A DNA stretch of 64,000 bases from Takashimella koratensis (lineage: Eukaryota > Basidiomycota > Tremellomycetes > Trichosporonales > Tetragoniomycetaceae). The notes below the pieces were generated by a model, which was not told where the DNA came from, ran no database searches, and worked only from the letters and a program-made list of their open reading frames with translations. This document shows positions 31,659 to 57,762 of this stretch, piece after piece. The position numbers and the translations under genes were made by a program. The DNA lies in contig BCKT01000013.1 of the NCBI GenBank assembly GCA_003116875.1, forward strand, positions 939,622 to 1,003,621, given 5' to 3'. The stretch's first letter is position 1. Each line of letters starts with the position of its first letter.

Positions 31659-33140
31659 ATGTCCGCCCCGCCCGGTGCCTCTCCGCGCTCGGTGTCATCC
31701 ACCCCGTCTTCCCCTTCTTCCCCTCTACCAGCGTCGCCCGGGTCCAAACCCCCCTCATACACCACACCCCCACCTCAGCGGCGAAACCCGATCGTCCGCT
31801 TCATCCTCTCAACCCTCTCTTTCCTCCTCTCGCAATGGATGCTCATCGGGATGGGTATCTTTGTCATCCTCGCTTGGCTCTTCCCCTCTGTCGGGAAACG
31901 TGGTGGCGCCGTCGCTTCTCAATGGACCATCACCTACGCAGCCGTCATCGTCATCTTCCTCATCTCTGGCCTCTCCTTACCGTTTGATAAACTCGTGAAA
32001 CACGCGCGAAACATCCGTTTACACGCGGTGGTTCAAATCATGTCGTTCCTCTTCACCCCGGCGATCTTCTTCGCTATCGCCTGCGCAGCGAAGACTAACT
32101 CGAACATCGAAGTGGCCACGCTCGTTGGACTCGTCGCGACTGGGTGTTTACCAACAACAATCAACTCCAACGTCGTCATGACTCGCCAAGCTGGCGGGGA
32201 CGAAGCAGCTACAACGGTCTCTGTCACGCTCGGCAACTTCTTAGGACCCTTTATCACCCCGCTCCTCATCACGAGGCTTTACCTCCCCGCTGTGGCCGAG
32301 TTTCACCCCTGGATCCCCTCGGACGCGCTCGACGACCTCCCCGCGCTGTATCGAAGCGTTATGATGCAAATGGGCCTCACCGTCTTCGTCCCTCTCGCAG
32401 TCGGTCAGGTGATTCGCGCCATCTGGACTAAACAGGTCGCCTGGGTTTTGACTACCTTCCGGCTAGCCAAATTTGGCTCGGTTTGTCTACTCCTTCTTGT
32501 CTGGTAAGTCTTGGCCTCTCTCTTGGCACCATGCTGTGTTTGCTAACTGTTTCCTTTCAGGGCAACATTCTGCAACGCTTTCGCTTCTCAATCTTTACAA
32601 ACCCTCAACACCCCTTCGATCATCTTCAACATCTTCGTCAACCTCGCATTGTGTATCTTCTTCACCGTTCTCTCCTTCTTCATCGCTCGCCCACCTCTTT
32701 TCCTAAACCGCCTCTCCCCTCGGATCTTCAAACGAGTCGACAAGCGCGAAGCTATTGCCATTTGCTTTTGCGCACCAGCAAAGACACAGGCACTAGGGAT
32801 CCCGCTGATTACGGCAATGTACCACGCCGAGAGCGATCAGGTGCGGTCAGCGATTCAGGTGCCGATGGTGTTGTATACGGCGGAACAGATCTTGGTTGGC
32901 CAAGTGATGGTGTGGCTGTTCAAGCGGTGGTTAAAGCAGGGAGAGGAGGGAGAAGGACTTGAGGTGGATGCAGGGGAAGGCAATGTAGCAGAGGTCGATG
33001 AGGGAGACCAAGGGGTTGCAGAGAGAGGGCTCGGGAAGATGGTGAGTAGAGGTGGTGAGCTAGGCGAGGAGAGAGAAGAGGTTCGAGCCGAGGGCAGAGG
33101 TCATGAGCTTCAAGTTGTACACAGTCTCGACAAGGATTAG
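31659..33140 (+). CDS. RCH1: RCH1/SLC10A7-like membrane transporter (SBF-like CPA family)
   Basis: Two exons (31659-32503 and 32561-33140; TGG codon split by the intron) give 474 residues. A Pro/Ser-rich cytosolic N-terminus of about 45 residues is followed by roughly ten hydrophobic helices starting FILSTLSFLLSQWMLIGM. Family hallmarks are GLSLPFDKL, ATGCLPTTINSNVVMT, AGGDEAATTVSVTLGN, CFCAPAKTQALGIPLI and VPMVLYTAEQILVGQ. In Candida and Saccharomyces Rch1 is a plasma-membrane negative regulator of cytosolic calcium uptake; vertebrate SLC10A7 has a related role. The C-terminal tail (from about 405) is long and very rich in Glu, Gly and Val, unlike the short human tail, and may be regulatory. 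The start has a good context (CTACCATGTCC). Confidence 0.88.
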
Positions 33141-47801: not shown

Positions 47802-50800
47802 TCAACCGATCCACGCATTTCCATGCGTATTCCATCCGTCCATATTCATCCCCATCCCTACTCCCAGGTCATACGTTGGCATCCCCCACTCTCCTCCACC
47901 TTGCTGTTGACCTTGATTCTGGCCTTGTTGCTGAGGCATATGTTGTGTCGGCGGGGGCATCGTTCCTTGTGTCGTCTGTGTCCCTGGGTACATTCCCGAC
48001 ACTGGTGTGATAGCCGCCGATCCTGGACCTGTCCCCGTTGACCCCGAATCATGCGTATGTCCCCCAGCCATACTGACCGACCCCGATCCCGACCCAACCT
48101 GTGGTTGCGTATCCCATGAGAAACTAAACACTTTGAGCAAGAAGTCGTCCGCTTGTTGTTGAGCCAGCTGGGCGTTGGACGTTGGGATCGGACCAGTCGC
48201 CATACCCGTACTCGGTCCGACATTGGCGGGTCCACTGGCCCCCGCGTTATTACTGAAGAAATTCGCGAGGATCCCTTCGACGGCCGGGTCGAGTGCAGGT
48301 GTTTGAGGAGGCGGGAAGACGGGTCCGCCGTTGAGGAACGAAGCCTGCATAGTGGACGGAACCGACTGATAACCCCAGGCCGCGTTGTTTACGAAAGTAT
48401 TGGTCGGGTTCATGCCACCCATCTGCATCATTTGGCCTGTGTAAGGGTTGTTCATAGCAGGATTAAAGGGCGCTGTGGGTCCTTGCGCCGTCGTGCGACC
48501 CATGGGACTTAGGCTTGAGGTAGTCACTCCACCAGCAACGGAAGCATGTGCACCAGCCGTTTCCGACGCTCGTCGCTCGTGAGTGATCGCGTAGGGCGAC
48601 TTGGCATCCGTACCTGGTGTCGAGCTGGGAGCGGAATCACTCTCGACAGCTTCGAGGGCGGCTTGCTTGATAAGTTCCTGAACAGCCTTTTTAAGCGTCT
48701 CGTCCCCTGCTGCGCCGTCCTCGTCACGCTCTGCACTGTCCCGCTCTTCGCCTCGCCCAGCGTGGACGTCATGTGCTTCACCGTCCGCAACGGCAGATGA
48801 CGACTTGCGTTTCGTCCCTCGCGGCTGGGAAAGGATTTTGCTCCGTCGCTCTTCGAACCCAGCGAGGAGGAAATCCATGATTCGTAGTGTCGCACGGGCG
48901 TTGCCCACTGTTACCCGTCTGAAACGACATCAGCATCATCACCTACATCTTGGTCACCTCAACTCACCTCATCTGGTCTAGTGCCCCTTTAACCTCGGCG
49001 ACCTTTTCGTTCGTCTCCGTTGATCCAAAGTTGTTCTTCGGCGTTCGAATAAGGTCGACAATAACCACCATCCCAGAGATAGACACTAACACCAAAATCA
49101 GCCCCTGCTTTTCGCACACACAGACAACTCGCAAGCTTACCGTAGAACAGAGCGATCCACCATTTCTCCAGATACGACGCCGATCCATCGTCCGCGGACA
49201 TGAGTCGCAACGCTGCTCGGGCGGCCCGGATACATTGTTCCTTGGAGTATGCATATCTGTTCTAATCAGCACAGACCTCACACTCAACTCGTTTCTTGAC
49301 TCACTTCTCATCCGTGTACCCGCGGGAGGAGAACGGCCGGTGCAGACGCAGCATACGTCCATGGAACGCGAGGTGCAATCCCATCTACCTGATCAGTTTC
49401 GCTCACTCAATCCCTATCACTCACCTTCTCATAAAGTTTTCGAATCTCCACCGCCTTGTCCCCTCCGCCCTCCTCATCCCCAGTTACATGGGCATCACGC
49501 TTCGCCACGTCTAACCTCAGGTAGGCCGGTACGTCCCTCAAAGCGCGGTGCATATCCGCGTCGAGACTAAGGATGAAAGCGTAGGGCGGGTGTGCATTGT
49601 TGTTCGCTTGCCAAATCTGGCGATGACTGACTTCGGCAAGAGCGATACGCGCAAGAGAATAAGACATGATCGTAGGTACGTCAGAAGGTTTAGGGTGGAA
49701 TGGGATCGAGTCGGAGAGATCTTCGTCATCGATGTTTGCAGGTTTGGCCGTTTTGACTGACAAGGAGTCGTTAGCTTCATTCGAGGTTTATTGTATGGAA
49801 GCATTTTTGACTCACTTTGGTCAGGCTGGATACTCGTAGCGTAGTTGTAACTAGGAGCCAAAGTCCAGTCAAGGAAGACGAGGTTCCACCATACTCGTCT
49901 ACCGACTTCACGCTCAACCAGGCTCTCCCATCTCCCCGTCCACATGGGCAATTTCTTCCCATCCGAAGCAGTTGGTTCTGCGCCAAGCCGAGAGAGTCCA
50001 AGCCCCTGCGCCATCTGTAGTGGTCGAGTCAACTCAACACAGGGAGCTTCGCAGGGCTGCAGCTGGGACGTACCTTGATAGCGCCACCGAGGAAGGCCCA
50101 AGCTGCGTCGGCACGGTCTTGGTTGTTCATGAACACCGTCATGATGATGAGGCACTGGATACTTTCGACCGTGTGTCGTCCGAAGAAGTCGGACGCCCAG
50201 CATGCCTGTCGTCTATCAGAGAATATTCGCCAACGACGAGACGCGAAGGAGGTGGACCTACCGTTCGAGAAGCATTATACCATGCGTCAGGGAGGGTACG
50301 AATATCTTCAGCGCTGAACACCTCGGCCGCTTCTTTCGGGTCCATGAATTGCAGCCCGAGCTGTGGTAGCGGTCAGCAATATTGCTGACAGGTTGTAGAG
50401 AGCTTGACGTACACAGCAGGCCACAAAGTAGATACCCAAGAAGCCTAAAGTAAACTCTTCGGTCGCTCGCTCAGGCGGCATCGCCCATAGGTCGTTGCAT
50501 TGACGCAAAAAGGTCGGAACGTGGAGGCATCGGTGAAGCCAGAGTACTTTGTCAAGATACTACGCTCTTGGTCAGCAATGTGATTAAATGTATGACAGAA
50601 GGCATGTGAAAATGGGAAAACTCGGATGGGATATAGATTCTCAACAACACTCACGTTCTTTATAACGATTCGACCTATCTCTGGGGTCGGGAGTAGCTTG
50701 GCCAGCGTCTTATTGATAAGATCTGTCCTTTTGTAAAAGACATCCAAGATATCACCCGGATTCAAGAGGGTCAACAACAGATCACTCGTGCTTGAGCCGG

Positions 50801-51788
50801 CTCCCGCTGCGTCTCCTTTATAGCTCTGGTCGACGATCCCTCCCATTCCTCCGGCCGCCGAAGTGCTGTGGGCGCCTACGAGCGGGTCGGCGGGGAGCCG
50901 CATCTCATGTCCTGGGCCAATGGTCGATCGTCGGAGGTGGTAGTTGCTCTCAGGGTCGGGTCGGGCAATGTTCCCCGGTGCCGCGCTGAACGTGGGGATC
51001 GCATGTGACCCTTGCACCTGAGACCGACCGAACGCGAGGTGTTCAAGTGTCAACGCCGCCGTTTCGGCTTCGTCAGGAGGGGTAGAGTCGCCCGGCGTCC
51101 CGCTGCCGAGATGCGCCTCGTCGTAGTCGGCGGAATGGGCGTGAGAACGGTGTGATACCGCAGAGGCCCGCACGGATTTGAGGTAGTCGTCGATATCGCG
51201 TGAAACGACGACACCTGCTTTGATGAGAGCGTGTTGGAGTGCATCAACTCGATGGACGAGGGAATTGTGGTCGGCGTTGGTCACGTATCCGCGCCCACTA
51301 CTTGAGGAAGCGTGAACGAGCATTTTCTCGGCTGCTCCGCCGGCTGTCGTAAAGCTGGTTGACCCGTGTGCTCCTCCCGAAGTAGATGGACCCGAGGTGG
51401 AAGTCGGCCGGCGCTCGTTCATATCGACCTCGTGACACCGGGGCTGGTCGCCGCGGAGGATACACGGTCCACATGGGAATTTGCGATCGCATTTGATTTT
51501 GCGGCGGCGACACTCTGAGCAACTCTGGACGACTCGGCGGCGGGTCGTTGGGATTTTGGCGCCGGAAGCAGGGGTTGACGTGTTGGTGCCCATCCCCGAG
51601 GTGGGGCCGATATGGATAAGAGAAGGAGGTGATGCATCCAAGCTGTCAGCCGAGAGGCCGCTGGCGGTAGCCAACAAGCTAGGCCTATGGTGCTCGGCTT
51701 TGACAAGGTGAGCGTCGACGTCGGGTCCGTCGTGAGAGTCGCTATAGGACTCTGGCTCGGAGAACGCGGCTTCTTGAGTGAAAGCCAT
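47802..51788 (-). CDS. Zn(II)2Cys6 transcription factor
   Basis: Ten minus-strand exons (51788-50655, 50559-50413, 50360-50262, 50205-50074, 50014-49816, 49756-49425, 49384-49305, 49256-49141, 49085-48968, 48918-47802), phases closing, give 1157 residues. The binuclear zinc cluster lies at 90-118 with spacing CX2CX6CX5CX2CX8C (SCSECRRRKIKCDRKFPCGPC). The middle resembles the fungal-specific transcription factor domain: YLDKVLWLHRCLHVPTFL, WALVFLDW-like VWWNLVFLDWTLAPSY, and LHLAFHGRMLRLHRPF. After a basic patch (GTKRKSS) the last 350 residues are Gln/Gly/Pro/Met-rich, as in activation regions. It should bind DNA as a dimer at CGG-type half sites; targets are unknown. It shares a 600-bp divergent promoter region with the F-box/WD40 gene. 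Confidence 0.92.
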
Positions 51789-52387
51789 CGCGTCGGCGGA
51801 GAACCGGGGCTAAGAGGTGAGTAGCAGATGAAGTAGAGAGAGGGAGAAGAGGAGATGAAGGAAATGAAAAGTGGTGAACAAGGTCGAGATGATCAAGGGA
51901 GACGGATGGATCGGGGGATGAGTCGAGCGAGATGAGACCGAGACGGAAATGTGCGGAACGGGGACGGACACTGGGATTACCCCGAGCGAGGCACGAGATT
52001 AGGATCCTGAGAACAGTGGGATTAGGAAAGGGTTGGGGTGCGCATTAATAACCAAATAGTCATTAGGCATAGATTGATTGGCAATCCACGGGTCCTTTAA
52101 CCGCCGCCGACAAGCCGCGGACCCGGAGCGGAGACGGGTTAAAGGATGCCCAACAAGGCCGATTGCAACCAAGCAAAAGGGACTAGTCTCAGGGTTGCAC
52201 GCGGACATCAGGCACGGCACACACACACACACACACACATACGCCCCCGCCCACTCCCAAAGGACCCACACACTTACAAGACATGATTACGTAAACTGGG
52301 TCTCGTATCACGTGACCCTCGGTTGCCTTTGACTCAACCGACCTGAGATCTCTTTTGTTGACTCTCCTCCTCTTTCCTCCATCCACC
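51789..52387. other. Divergent promoter region of the transcription factor and F-box genes
   Basis: About 600 bp containing a CA microsatellite (about 52219-52240) and a TCACGTGA box with its core at 52309-52314, 74 bp upstream of the F-box start. No gene is seen. Confidence 0.5.
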
Positions 52388-54436
52388 ATGGCATCAATGT
52401 CAACGTCGACACCACAGACTACGCAATCTCAACTTCATCCACATGCTTCCACACCCCTTCGGCAGCTGCCTACAAAGACGGGTCGGCCGCCATCAGCATC
52501 TCCACGTACCCTCGACACCAATCGAAGGAGGCTTGGCGATTTGCTTTCGTCATTCGCAGCTCTCGCTCTTGGTCGATCAGCTACGACAGAGGAAGGATTG
52601 GAAGGTGAAAGTGATGACGTCTCGACAGTGGATGGACTACCATCTCTTCATGGGCTGAAGAGCATACGAGTCGACGCGGATCTCGATCAAGATGAAGGAT
52701 GTTTTGTGGATCCTGAATCAGCATGCGTACCAGGCTCGCCGTTTTTGTCTCTTCCAGATGAACTGTAAGCCTGCAGCTGCCACGAAAAGTAAGATCTTAG
52801 CTGACGCTTTCATCAGTGTCCTACATGTCTTCACGTTCCTCCCGACTACAGCGGCTCAGCTGCTCACGCTCACTCTCGTCTCTCAACGCATCCATGATCT
52901 CGCTTTCTCTCCAATTCTTTGGGCACGCGCATTCGACGCTCAGCCAGGCTTCCGACTCCGCCCCGAGGCTCGGGATCTGATCGTAGCCACCAACATCCCT
53001 CCCAAGGATCCTTCCGCAGCACCCAAGCCCACCGGGTGGTTCGGACGCCGCCCTCGTGCGCCGCCGTCAAATCCCGATCTGTCCAGAGAGTCCAACTCGA
53101 CATCCATCCCTGTTCATTTTCCAACCTTGTTCCGCTCTCGCGCTGCGCTGTCCCGTTGCATGCGCAGACCAGGATTGATGGATGCTCCGCAGACCACGAC
53201 GGTATCTGCGCACCAGGATAGCGTGTACTGCGTCGACATCCAAGATCAGTGGGTCGTCACTGGGTCTCGAGATAGATCGATCCGGCTTTGGAAACTCCCG
53301 GGGCTCTTGACGACGGCGACGTCCGATACGTCAGACGAGGAGGATGACGGAGATGGAAAGGGTAGAGAACAGGGAGCGAGATCAGCGAGGGAGGTTGCGA
53401 AAGTATCCAAAGCGCACACGGGAAGTGTCCTGAGCGTCTGCTTCGAGTTGAAGCGGAATGAAAAAGACCAGCTAGTTGGGGAGATCGTCACGGGATCGAG
53501 CGACAAGACAGCCGCGGTATGGTTGGTGCACTGGGAAGGAGACGAGGTGACAATGGAGAAAGAGGTCTCTCTGACAGGCCATACCGAGGCGGTCCTCGAT
53601 GTCGCCTTTAACGAAGATCGGATCGTTTCTTGGTAAGTATGAAGTAAGTTGTCCAAGCATTGGAGCTAACGTTGGACCGCAGCTCAAAAGACTTTTCAGT
53701 TCGAGGTATGTTCTCTCATCTCCCGTGACCTAGCAGAGCTGACCTTGTCCCAGTCTACGACAGGACGACTCATGAAAACCTGCACGTTCTCAACCACCAC
53801 ACTGGCCCTGTCAACGCCCTGGCACTCCATCCTACTTGGCGCGGCCATGCCGTCAGCGCGTCTGGAGACGGTAGCTGGGTCGTGTTCGACATCTACAGCG
53901 GTGAAGTCCTACTCCGTGGCGAGAACAACCCTGGTCTCGCTTGTGTCGCTTGGGAGGTGAGTGTATACCAACTGTTGTCTCTCGTTGCCACTTGCTGATC
54001 ACCTCGCAGATGGACGCGATCCTCGCTGGGTGCAACCACCGCAGTATCAAGATGTTCTCGTCCACCTCGGGCGAGCTCATTCGTGAATTCATCGGCCACA
54101 CCGACTTGGTCCGTGCTCTAGCTGTGGACCTCGAATCGGGGCTCGTGGTTAGCGGGAGCTACGATCGGTCGATTCGGATCTGGGATACGAGGACGGGAGA
54201 GTGTCTAAGGCGTCTGCCGGGTCATAGTAGCCTTGTGTTTGATTTGGCTCTGCAAGGGCCAAGGCTGATCTCGTGAGTGCATGGCTGGATCGGGCTACGT
54301 CATACCCACAACCTCGCGCGGCTTGTCTTCCGCCGCCAAGATGTCGTGGCTGACCTTGAACAGAGCCAGCCACGACACATCGTTCCAGGTGACAACGTTT
54401 GGTTTGGGTTTACCCTACATCGACCTTTTTGCTTGA
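52388..54436 (+). CDS. F-box/WD40 protein, probable SCF ubiquitin-ligase substrate receptor
   Basis: Six exons (52388-52764, 52817-53632, 53683-53705 of 23 nt, 53754-53956, 54010-54272, 54364-54436) give 584 residues. The F-box is at about 119-165 (FLSLPDELVLHVFTFLP... LVSQRIHDLAFSPILW), followed by WD repeats: AHQDSVYCVDI with GSRDRSIRLWK, AHTGSVLSVCFE, GSSDKTAAVW, GHTEAVLDVAF, CSKDFSVRVYD, HHTGPVNALALHP, GHTDLVRALAV and GSYDRSIRIWDTRTGECLR. The F-box would bind Skp1 and the propeller a phosphorylated substrate, as in Met30, Pof1 or Cdc4. Which of these it corresponds to cannot be decided by eye. One blade is interrupted by an acidic loop (TSDEEDDGDG). The proximal CACGTG would suit a sulfur-regulated Met30-like gene, but that is speculative. 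Confidence 0.9.
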
Positions 54437-54547: not shown

Positions 54548-55494
54548 TTATTGCTCGGGCAGTTGTGCTTTGCCTTCTAAGACATCGAGAAACCCCTCGG
54601 CGTACCGGAGACACTGGTTGTAACACTCCTGAAAGCCGCTCGACCCGCCATAGTACGGGTCCGAGATGGACGCGGGTGTTGAGCGGGTAGTACTCGCTAG
54701 TCGGTTAGTGTCGAACGCGCCGAAGAGGGAGATGTATGCGCGACACCCCTTGGGCGCGCGATGTTGTAGATTCTGCAGGCTGGGGAAAGTGAGCCGAGGC
54801 TGGGAGACAGGGAGATAGCCGGTAGCTGTGCTGAACAAGCGGTTCAAGGGGATGGTGAGACTCACTTGGATTGGTCCATGGCGAGAATGTAGTCAAAGCG
54901 AGTATAGTCATCGTTGACTACTTTGCGCGCGGTGCATGATATCGGGACTCCGTGCTGAATGGTTAACGCGACCCAGTGGGTTGGCTTACTTTCCGACAGA
55001 TGGCTACTGTCCTGCACTCCAAACCAGGTCAAGCCGAGATCTTGTCAGCCACGGCGTACTCCCTCTCTCCTTGGTCTGTACTGGAGGCAACAGCAACAGC
55101 GACCCACCGGTCATCTGCTTCCTCGCCGGCATGGTATGCGCCCGTTCCGGCCGAATCAACGTTAATCTTGACCGTCTTTGCGAGATCCGGGCGGAGCGTG
55201 ATCTGGTGTTTGAGTACAGCCTCGGCCATAGGTGATCGGCTGTGTCGGGATCAGATAAGGGGTCCGTATCCATAATCTCGGCGATAGACGTAGGAGTGAT
55301 GGAGCTTACCAGATGCTAAGTGTCAGCTTGAGTAGAAACGGCGACTCACTTGCTATGATCGCAAGAATGAGGACGAGATGGGGCGAGCGTGGTTAAATGG
55401 GTCAGCTTGATCTCGTTGCAGACGATTCAAGCCAGGCCGGGACTCACCCGAGGCAGACCATGAGGACGTTGACTTGACGAGGGTCGGACGGCAT
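54548..55494 (-). CDS. LTP1: Low-molecular-weight protein tyrosine phosphatase, catalytic loop built from micro-exons
   Basis: Seven minus-strand exons: 55494-55448, 55352-55350 (3 nt), 55315-55310 (6 nt), 55239-55108, 55011-54990 (22 nt), 54954-54866, 54779-54548; 176 residues. The phosphatase loop VCLGNICRSPMAEAV (C14 nucleophile, R20, CX5R) appears only when exon 1 (ending GG), CAA, CATCTG and exon 4 (starting CCGATCACC) are joined; each micro-exon has a proper AG before it and GTGAGT or GTAAGC after it. Other family blocks are VDSAGTGAYH, RFDYILAMDQSNLQNL and the general-acid loop DPYYGG (D140). The loop before DPYYGG is somewhat longer than usual. The enzyme dephosphorylates phosphotyrosine on cytosolic proteins. 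The length is slightly above the usual 155-165. Confidence 0.93.
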
Positions 55495-55676
55495 ACTCCA
55501 GAGGCCAGCACGGGCTGTCGGGCAGGGGGTCAATCGAGGGGTGATAAAAGGAGAATGAGGAGATGAGAACAAAGGCAATCTCAAATTCGACTTTTGACCC
55601 ATCCCTTTTTTAAACCATATCCATTATCTTGAAACGTGTCCATATCTCACTCGACCCCCACCCCCAATCGTTCGCC

Positions 55677-57762
55677 ATGGCGGGCCTCGAGCATATACCC
55701 TTGACGGAGCAGGACGAAATCGACTCCCGCGTGAGCGAGCAGCATGTACTCGGCTCTGACGACGGTGAAGAGGACGACGACCTTGACCTCGAGCTGGAGG
55801 AGGATCCTCGGCTAGGTTCTGAATCCAGTGCTACTCGGAACGACGGAGATCGCGATCCAGCACCGAGCAACGACGAGCACGAAGCGCTCCTAGGAGCTGG
55901 TCGGACACCGCGTGCTCCGCTCAAGCCACCAAGTGCGGGGTGGTGGGACGGATGGGTGACCATCGCTGGCGTGAGAGTAAGTTCAGCGGGAAGCCAACGA
56001 CCGCCTTAATTCCACCCCGCTCACACCGTCAGATACCTCGTCTCCTACTCGTCCTCATCTCCTTACCCGTCCTGATCCTCCTCATCGCATCTCTACTCCC
56101 CCGCCGCCTGTCTCCACTTATCAACCCCATCCCTCCCATTCTCCTCTCGAACGGCACTCACCCCTGGCACCCTTTAACCTTGATCATCTCCCTCGACGGT
56201 TTCCGGCCATCTTACCTCTCCACGCACCCTACTCTCCTCCCTTCCCTCCTCTCCCTCGCGACCTCCGACCTCGGTCTCCGCGCGACCGCTATGCAACCCG
56301 TCTTCCCGACCCTCACCTTCCCAAATCACTGGGCACTCATGTCGGGCCTCTACCCCGAATCAAGCGGGATCGTTGCAAACGATTTTTGGACAGAGGATAG
56401 AGGAGAGTTCAAGTATACGGATCCAGAGAAGAGTTGGGATCCTGGTTGGTGGTTTGGAGAGCCGATGTGGAGTGTGGTGCATAGAGCAGGGAGGAAGGCG
56501 GCGAATATCATGTGGTGAGTGGGCTCAGGAGGTAGCAAGGTGAGCTGCTAACGCCGTCTAGGCCAGGCCCACCAGTTACTTCAATGGGAATCGCCCCAGA
56601 CTACTTTGTCCCCTACCGCGTGAGTCCAAGCTTGGCTACCTACTCTAACTTACAGTCTGCAACCCCGTCCGAGAAGTTGGGCATCCTCGAGAGCTACCTC
56701 GACTACGATCTCGACTCCCGGCCCTCATTTATTAGCCTTTACGTCCCCGACGTCGACCAGTCCGGCCACGCTGGCGGTCCCGTCTCACCCGAAGTCGACG
56801 ACGCCCTCTCCCGCGTCGACAGTTTCATCGGAGGCGTGCTAGATGCCGTCAAAGCCAGGAATGCCACGGGCTTGGTCGATATCATCGTCGTCTCTGATCA
56901 CGGTGGGTGCAGGCGGTCGAGATTGTCACGGATTTTTGCTGATTGAACAGGAATGGCGAGTACGAGTAATATCCGACTCATCTATCTGGATGATATTCTT
57001 GGAAAAGACGGGTACGAGTCGATCGAGCACAAGGATGGTATGTTTTTGGCAACTTTTTCATGATTCTGGAGCACTGCAGTCGTTGCCGGTCCCCCTTGGC
57101 TGATTCCCGCAGGATGGCCATCTGTCGGCCTTCGTTTCAAGCCCGGAACCGACGTCAACCTGCAGCTCAACCGACTCCTCGACGCTGCCGACAAGTCCAA
57201 CGGTACTTTTGCAGTCTATACACACGATACCATGCCTGAGCGATGGCATTTCTCGCACAGTGATCGAATCGCAGGGATCTACGTCGTCCCTGACCTCGGA
57301 TGGGCAATCACCGACCATGCAAGTATCCATCTCTCCTGTTCCTGTCAAGATCCTGAACAAGAAGAACGTGAAGATCAAGGTCCTAACCACCTCAACTATT
57401 TACAGCACGAACACGAGGTAATCCATGAAGGTGATTACAGACCAAAAGGGAATCACGGATACGATAACGAGTACGACGAGATGCAAGCTATCTTTTTCGC
57501 GCATGGACCGTTCGCCTCGGCATTAAAAGCGTCTGCACCGACAAAGCGCGGATGGGAATCAAACAACCCTCATGTCCTCGAACGTGAGTTGAGATGGTCG
57601 GCGTGGTGTCTCTGTGATCGTGTCTCCAGTTCGGAGACTGACACGCTTATAGGGTTCCGAAATCTCGAGATATATGGTCTCGTGATGAAGCTTCAAGGGC
57701 TGGAATCGATCTCGCCACCACATAACGGCACCCAAGGGTTCTGGGAACAGTATTTGGATTAA
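55677..57762 (+). CDS. NPP1: Nucleotide pyrophosphatase/phosphodiesterase (NPP family), type II membrane protein
   Basis: Seven exons (55677-55976, 56033-56514, 56562-56619, 56656-56902, 56951-57037, 57113-57583, 57653-57762) give 584 residues. A 100-residue acidic cytosolic N-terminus precedes a single membrane anchor at about 104-122. The alkaline-phosphatase-superfamily active site is complete: LDGFRPSY (metal ligand D155), PTLTFPNHW (nucleophile T195), YPESSGIVANDFW, VPDVDQSGHAGGP, VVSDHGM and PKGNHGYDN. Yeast Npp1/Npp2 hydrolyse extracellular nucleotides and are induced by phosphate starvation. The last intron (57584-57652, 69 nt) is stop-free and in frame. A segment at about 57320-57405 (Gln/Glu-rich, CQDPEQEERED) is not conserved and might be an unrecognised intron or a species-specific loop. 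Confidence 0.92.

Follow-up and report, generated by a model that had tools for sequence, protein, structure and literature searches.

A low molecular weight tyrosine phosphatase gene of Takashimella koratensis with a catalytic loop predicted to be assembled from 3-nt and 6-nt micro-exons

A catalytic loop split over four exons

Can the active-site loop of an enzyme be pieced together from exons of three and six nucleotides, and is a gene that is built in this way likely to give rise to a working protein? This question is raised by a gene on the minus strand of the window, a stretch of 64,000 nucleotides from the genome of Takashimella koratensis. The first-pass annotation had assigned the gene to the low molecular weight protein tyrosine phosphatases (LMW-PTPs), and this assignment is supported by the match of its 176-residue product to the family profile (Pfam LMWPc, PF01451; 129.5 bits, with 23.2 as the cut-off, over the whole profile of 144 positions). 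The product aligns almost from end to end with the structurally solved yeast LTP1 and human LMW-PTP (PDB 1d1p, 5jnr), with which it also shares the CLGN[IF]CRSP loop and the DP[YW]YG motif. The C-x5-R-S P-loop near the N-terminus (C14-LGNIC-R20-S21) is present only when both micro-exons are included, and D140-PYYGG of the DPYYG motif is invariant across a 32-row alignment, Asp140 being, by analogy, the presumed general acid. The enzyme itself is ordinary; as far as a likeness that rests on the proteins can tell, the exon structure is what sets the T. koratensis gene apart from its yeast and human counterparts.

The complete gene (55494-54548, minus strand) has seven exons of, from 5' to 3', 47, 3, 6, 132, 22, 89 and 232 nt and introns of 95, 34, 70, 96, 35 and 86 nt, all six of which are of the GT-AG type with GTGAGT, GTAAGC or GTGGGT as donor; the joined coding sequence of 531 nt including the stop codon has no internal stop. 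Exon 1 (55448-55494) runs from the inferred start codon to VCLG and ends in phase 2 with TGC CTC GG, followed by intron 1 (55353-55447, GTGAGT...ATAG). Exon 2 (55350-55352) is the predicted micro-exon CAA, which would end the Gly codon and begin that of Asn17 and for which enumeration, a spliced aligner and the protein models of relatives that lack this Asn all speak. Beyond intron 2 (55316-55349, GTGAGT...CTGAC...TTAG) lies the second predicted micro-exon, CATCTG (exon 3, 55310-55315), which would end the Asn17 codon, encode Ile18 and begin Cys19; here the indications are enumeration, the aligner, models that lack Asn-Ile-Cys (NIC) and a Ser-Ile-Cys reading in one further model (P0019). After intron 3 (55240-55309, GTAAGC...ACAG), exon 4 (55108-55239) opens with CCGATCACC directly behind ACAG, ends the Cys19 codon and encodes the catalytic Arg20 and the sequence SPMAEAV. 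The P-loop would accordingly be split as GG/CAA/CATCTG/CCG, which reads C14-L-G-N-I-C-R20-S, so that three introns interrupt nine coding bases; the predicted cDNA join across the micro-exons is GGCAACATCTGCCGA. With CAA placed between ATAG and GTGAGT and CATCTG between TTAG and GTAAGC, both micro-exons are internal, at most 15 nt long, flanked by AG and GT and closing in phase, and would count as ultra-short micro-exons. Re-reading of the minus strand found the bases, coordinates and phases given for them in the first-pass annotation to be right, and its claim of a P-loop built from a 3-nt and a 6-nt exon with closing phases is borne out. A 22-nt exon had been described as following them. It does exist (exon 5, 54990-55011), and its skipping would shift the frame, but the 132-nt exon 4 and the 96-nt intron 4 (55012-55107, GTGGGT...GCAG) come before it. 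The gene then continues with intron 5 (54955-54989, GTAAGC...TCAG), exon 6 (54866-54954), intron 6 (54780-54865, GTGAGT...CCAG) and exon 7 (54548-54779), which carries the DPYYGG motif and the stop codon.

From the consensus we take the CTGAC of intron 2 to be its putative branch point. Introns 2 and 1 have a 10-nt stretch in common, TCAAGCTGAC on the minus strand (55322-55331 and 55401-55410), around this branch-point-like CTGAC. A common consensus and the trace of an intron duplication were both considered as its source, and the duplication was set aside because the repeat covers the branch-point-like motif.

To assess chance assembly of the loop, we shuffled the 208-nt stretch that separates exon 1 from exon 4, with dinucleotides kept and the ends of both exons fixed. 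The nine missing bases could come from one, two or three AG..GT exons, and every intron had to measure 25 nt or more. Not one of 20,000 shuffles permits assembly of the required nine bases, the native stretch permits exactly one, 3+6, and when more residues are admitted at the Ile position the result is 0 of 5,000. In addition, we used a spliced aligner which charges a penalty per intron, has no built-in bias to small exons and is free in its choice of GT and AG. Run with three templates that have an intact loop (P0001, P0013 and the Auriculariales protein P0020) at five intron penalties, it returned identical internal exon boundaries, the 3-nt and 6-nt exons among them, in 15 of 15 runs; in the control, a bile-acid-transporter-like gene of the window, three templates produced no micro-exon and just one intron, of 57 nt. 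Neither the enumeration with fixed outer ends nor the aligner with free sites yielded an alternative join. At the level of the DNA, the micro-exon structure can be regarded as confirmed.

The loop in protein models of related fungi

The strongest, albeit indirect, support for the micro-exons comes from the protein models of other species. A comparison with gene structures in related basidiomycetes had been proposed as a check in the first-pass annotation and, made by way of deposited protein models, it favours the micro-exon pair. One search used the intact protein as query (best 120 of 7,998 matches), the other a profile of ten NIC-less models (best 120 of 7,951 matches), and the second leans towards NIC-less models because of its profile. 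Pooled and assigned manually to groups according to source name, the matches listed comprise 187 different proteins, namely 26 from named Tremellomycetes, 130 from other named sources (at least one of them bacterial) and 31 unnamed ones. Membership in the Tremellomycetes was looked up for five taxa and is presumed for the remaining named ones, and the 26 models are not independent of each other, as they include ten from Kwoniella, two from T. mesenterica and two from Naganishia, for which reason the value of a Fisher test on these counts is not to be read as a probability. A loop was counted as kept when it fitted G-N-x-[CA]-[RK]-[SA].

Ten of the 26 listed Tremellomycete models read VCLG-RSP, that is CLGRSP, and lack exactly the NIC of both micro-exons (P0003, P0004, P0005, P0006, P0007, P0010, P0014, P0015, P0018 and P0040). 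Two of the 26 lack exactly the N of the 3-nt exon, those of Cutaneotrichosporon sp. HIS471 (P0122, VCLGICRSP) and Tremella mesenterica (P0124, VCTGICRSP), and one, from Kwoniella bestiolae (P0019), reads DDSICRSP. Gaps or read-through at exactly the micro-exon positions are hence found in 13 of the 26. Twelve start downstream of the loop (P0009, P0012, P0016, P0017, P0023, P0029, P0052, P0070, P0121, P0123, P0125 and P0126), and the single intact loop is that of Mrakia frigida (P0043). The first search alone, with its best 120 matches, holds 20 named Tremellomycetes and likewise one intact loop, again that of Mrakia. Among the matches listed the motif is kept by all 130 other named proteins, including one that is cut at its start (P0060), one that reads GNIARSP (P0151) and one with an altered upstream stretch (P0183), and by 30 of the 31 listed unnamed proteins, the remaining one (P0008) starting after the loop.

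Models that lack NIC, that lack N or that read S-I-C are what would be expected if gene prediction missed both micro-exons, missed the 3-nt exon, or read through upstream of the 6-nt exon, respectively. The NIC gap alone is equally well explained by a single exon of 9 nt. Such an exon would read Asn-Ile-Cys, whereas AG followed by CATCTG reads Ser-Ile-Cys; the S-I-C of P0019 is consistent with an AG acceptor directly before CATCTG, though its Ser may also be encoded by a TCN codon. As to the DNA of relatives, a scan of viral contigs gave no match and one of genome contigs hit 30 loci, whose titles are all bacterial.

Two further deviations were noticed among these models. P0070 and P0125 carry an in-frame insertion just before HKIP/HGVP, where the T. 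koratensis gene has intron 5 of 35 nt, as would result from reading through a short intron. In P0183, from the agaric Tetrapyrgos nigripes, an unrelated GFQFT directly precedes GNICRSP, as if an intron lay near the same Gly codon, and this stretch may possibly mark an older intron at that spot.

Four of the unnamed open reading frames (P0001, P0002, P0011 and P0013) contain GNICRSP in one open frame that runs across the sites of all six introns. The contigs behind them are at most 966, 987, 1,419 and 3,781 nt long, respectively, and our guess is that they are assembled transcripts of apparent relatives. In the tree P0011 groups with T. mesenterica (99/97) and P0013 with Cryptococcus depauperatus (100/93), P0001 and P0002 are weakly placed among Tremellales-like rows, and the T. 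koratensis protein stands beside that of a Tremellales MAG with modest support (82/80). Mrakia belongs to the Cystofilobasidiales, Naganishia to the Filobasidiales, Cutaneotrichosporon to the Trichosporonales, and Tremella and Kwoniella to the Tremellales. Since the Cystofilobasidiales are the first-branching of these orders, we infer that the line of Mrakia had already parted when the split loop arose or was retained. The losses of N only support the presence of the 3-nt exon in both Trichosporonales and Tremellales, and in Naganishia the models point at least to a total gap of 9 nt at the same place.

Splicing of the micro-exons and competing explanations

What would become of the protein if any of these small introns or exons were mishandled? 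By computation, retention of intron 1 leads immediately to a stop, that of intron 2 to a stop one codon on and that of intron 3 to a stop inside two codons, the products ending in VCLG, VCLGK and VCLGNIW. Loss of the 3-nt exon, of the 6-nt exon or of both would keep the frame and turn C-x5-R into C-x4-R, C-x3-R and C-x2-R, respectively. These computed products agree with the first-pass annotation, which had stated that skipping of either exon preserves the frame yet takes one or two residues out of the loop, and by the chemistry of the LMW-PTP family such shortened P-loops should be inactive. As retention means an instant stop and skipping a broken loop in an intact frame, the micro-exons are presumably included as a rule. 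Because the introns are short, their splice sites are likely to be paired across the introns, that is by intron definition. Introns 1 to 3 would be taken out one after another, since both ends of a 3-nt exon could hardly be bound simultaneously; each removal would make the adjoining exon longer, a feature of recursive splicing, and the exonic part of the donor behind CAA would be provided by CAA itself (CAA/GTGAGT). Gene predictors, in turn, would tend to drop the pair. We put at about 85% the probability that the gene encodes an active phosphatase, that its micro-exon pair is normally included through stepwise removal of three introns, and that this arrangement is old in the Tremellomycetes and has been lost by annotation.

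Could the nine bases be joined differently, by other sites, by introns that are not of the GT-AG type or as one larger exon, with the two micro-exons being coincidental? The enumeration leaves some room for this, as it kept exons 1 and 4 fixed at their inner ends and admitted GT-AG introns only. However, the aligner arrived at the 3-nt and 6-nt exons in every run, chance assembly failed in all 20,000 shuffles, and the loss of N alone in the models of two relatives requires a separate Asn unit there too, which makes another join very improbable. Hardly any probability attaches to the view of the locus as a pseudogene or assembly artefact with a normal copy elsewhere. The copy of the genome that was searched may be incomplete, and searches score only the best candidates, but the 531-nt frame is intact and its splice sites are good. 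Moreover, in the 25.1-Mb genome no contiguous stretch coding for CLGNICR was found, in agreement with the earlier claim that the signature CLGNICRSP is absent in contiguous form, and a 128-residue probe for a second LMW-PTP locus gave three matches at the known locus and one other at an E value of 0.43. A second intact copy, which according to the first-pass annotation would have marked this one as a pseudogene, did not turn up in that search, and both a second copy and a pseudogene were rejected on these grounds. Just as implausible is the idea that the other species truly lack NIC and possess natural pseudophosphatases, the T. koratensis gene being exceptional or decaying. Ten deposited models do read CLGRSP; however, outside the gap these models are conserved, DPYYGG included, the absent residues match the two micro-exons to the base, two further models miss the 3-nt exon only, the unnamed open reading frames of apparent relatives carry NIC, and the joined frame of T. 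koratensis is free of internal stops.

A different matter is whether the pair might be skipped on purpose, as a splicing-based switch of the kind that the first-pass annotation had proposed. In its full form this idea, which we consider improbable, sees in the pair an ancient and conserved splicing switch of the Tremellomycetes, in which conditional skipping of one or both micro-exons would yield mRNAs that stay in frame but encode a dead phosphatase, perhaps still able to bind partners, and would set the dose of activity. If it were true, cells would tune phosphatase activity by splicing three active-site residues in or out. All three skips keep the frame and break C-x5-R, whereas loss of the 22-nt exon shifts it; ten deposited models correspond to the double skip and two to the skip of the 3-nt exon; and a switch-like microexon has been reported in Trichoderma (PMC11121469, in the available text). 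Against this stands that 3 and 6 nt keep the frame by their length alone, that the four unnamed open reading frames carry both micro-exons, and that ab initio gene prediction accounts for the NIC-less and N-less models. For the Cryptococcus and Kwoniella genomes, the accessible part of the genome paper (PMC11185503) describes annotation by BRAKER2 with RNA-seq where available and libraries from four Cryptococcus species. The listed Kwoniella models were therefore probably not built on reads from their own species, and this weakens skipping as the source of the missing residues. Inclusion of the pair in an active phosphatase remains the reading that we prefer.

Precedents for very small exons and the surroundings of the gene

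How far does this gene depart from what is known of small exons? Though extreme, its structure is of a kind already documented. Cryptococcus neoformans, in which comparable exons occur, presumably belongs to the same fungal class as T. koratensis. The earlier statement that a 3-nt exon is near the lower limit of what can be spliced was overstated, because exons of 1 nt are documented in plants (PMC8831610) and in C. neoformans (PMC3990503), as far as the available text of both goes; the part of PMC8042270 at hand cites 3-nt exons in mouse Ncam and in Drosophila TnT. C. neoformans var. grubii resembles T. koratensis in its short introns, with a median of 56 nt, and in tiny exons, down to 1 bp, that are hard for automatic annotation, but the relevant section, in the excerpt available, names no gene (PMC3990503), whereas here there is a gene, an adjacent 3+6 pair, a place in the catalytic loop and signs of conservation. 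According to the accessible portion of PMC8831610, plants have 1-nt exons in APC11 and VPS55 and an adjacent pair of 5 and 12 nt in rice; their microexons are conserved, missing from annotations and usually included, and the flanking introns are excised in succession and not at the same time, with a tendency for the upstream one to be detained. In being ultra-short, conserved, unannotated, usually included and dependent on consecutive intron removal they would be matched by the T. koratensis pair; by that same portion, however, they are proven by RNA-seq and RT-PCR, while the pair described here is known from sequence and protein models. The Xlr2 microexon of Trichoderma virens is likewise fungal and its skipping removes a key part of the protein, but its inclusion varies with glucose by experiment (PMC11121469, available text), in contrast to a pair known from the DNA. 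The P450 genes of Phanerochaete chrysosporium, also a basidiomycete, have short introns and exons down to 6 bp; the 6-bp exon comes from a survey of a gene family, as the part of PMC1184071 at hand describes it, whereas T. koratensis has 3 nt, and these in a catalytic loop.

Literature searches, with most subscription journals outside their coverage, listed no paper with a title or opening abstract lines on micro-exons of LMW-PTP or LTP1, and a survey of C. neoformans phosphatases (PMC7445287) contains none of the terms LTP1, LMW and low molecular weight in its available main text. Not found in print in these searches are the gene, the 3+6 pair in the catalytic loop and the clade-wide loss of this loop from protein models. 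Three introns within nine coding bases would be an extreme test of spliceosomal exon definition, in a lineage with culturable relatives. The loss from protein models looks like a systematic database error, as the intact loop is absent from all 25 listed named Tremellomycete models other than that of Mrakia, and model-based surveys may therefore overlook a working enzyme or score it as dead. By the same token, a gap of a few residues in an otherwise invariant motif, shared by one clade, could reveal more conserved micro-exons from protein databases alone.

The surroundings of the gene offer some minor observations. An upstream region of about 180 bp (55495-55676) is common to the LMW-PTP gene and a divergent gene on the plus strand, whose frame at 55823-56515 yields a Pfam match to Phosphodiest (PF01663) at 113.9 bits and whose start near 55677 was inferred from the list of open reading frames. 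A promoter scan upstream of the LMW-PTP gene gave two weak matches to a bacterial-type consensus, which are not meaningful for a fungus. Just past its 3' end, on the opposite strand, lies a frame with WD40 repeats (53905-54273, plus strand), and an open frame at 50445-51809 (minus strand) contains a fungal Zn(2)-Cys(6) cluster domain (PF00172). The transporter gene of the aligner control resembles sodium/bile acid cotransporter 7 (31674-32999, plus strand) and has its one 57-nt intron at 32504-32560. Among the best 120 of 222 matches to a fragment of this transporter none is near-identical, with values of 73% for a JGI protein, 72% for Naematelia encephala and 70% for Vanrija albida. P0192 from Vanrija albida, deposited as the LRR receptor-like kinase RGI2, is a sodium/bile acid cotransporter by Pfam and by similarity, and its name looks wrong.
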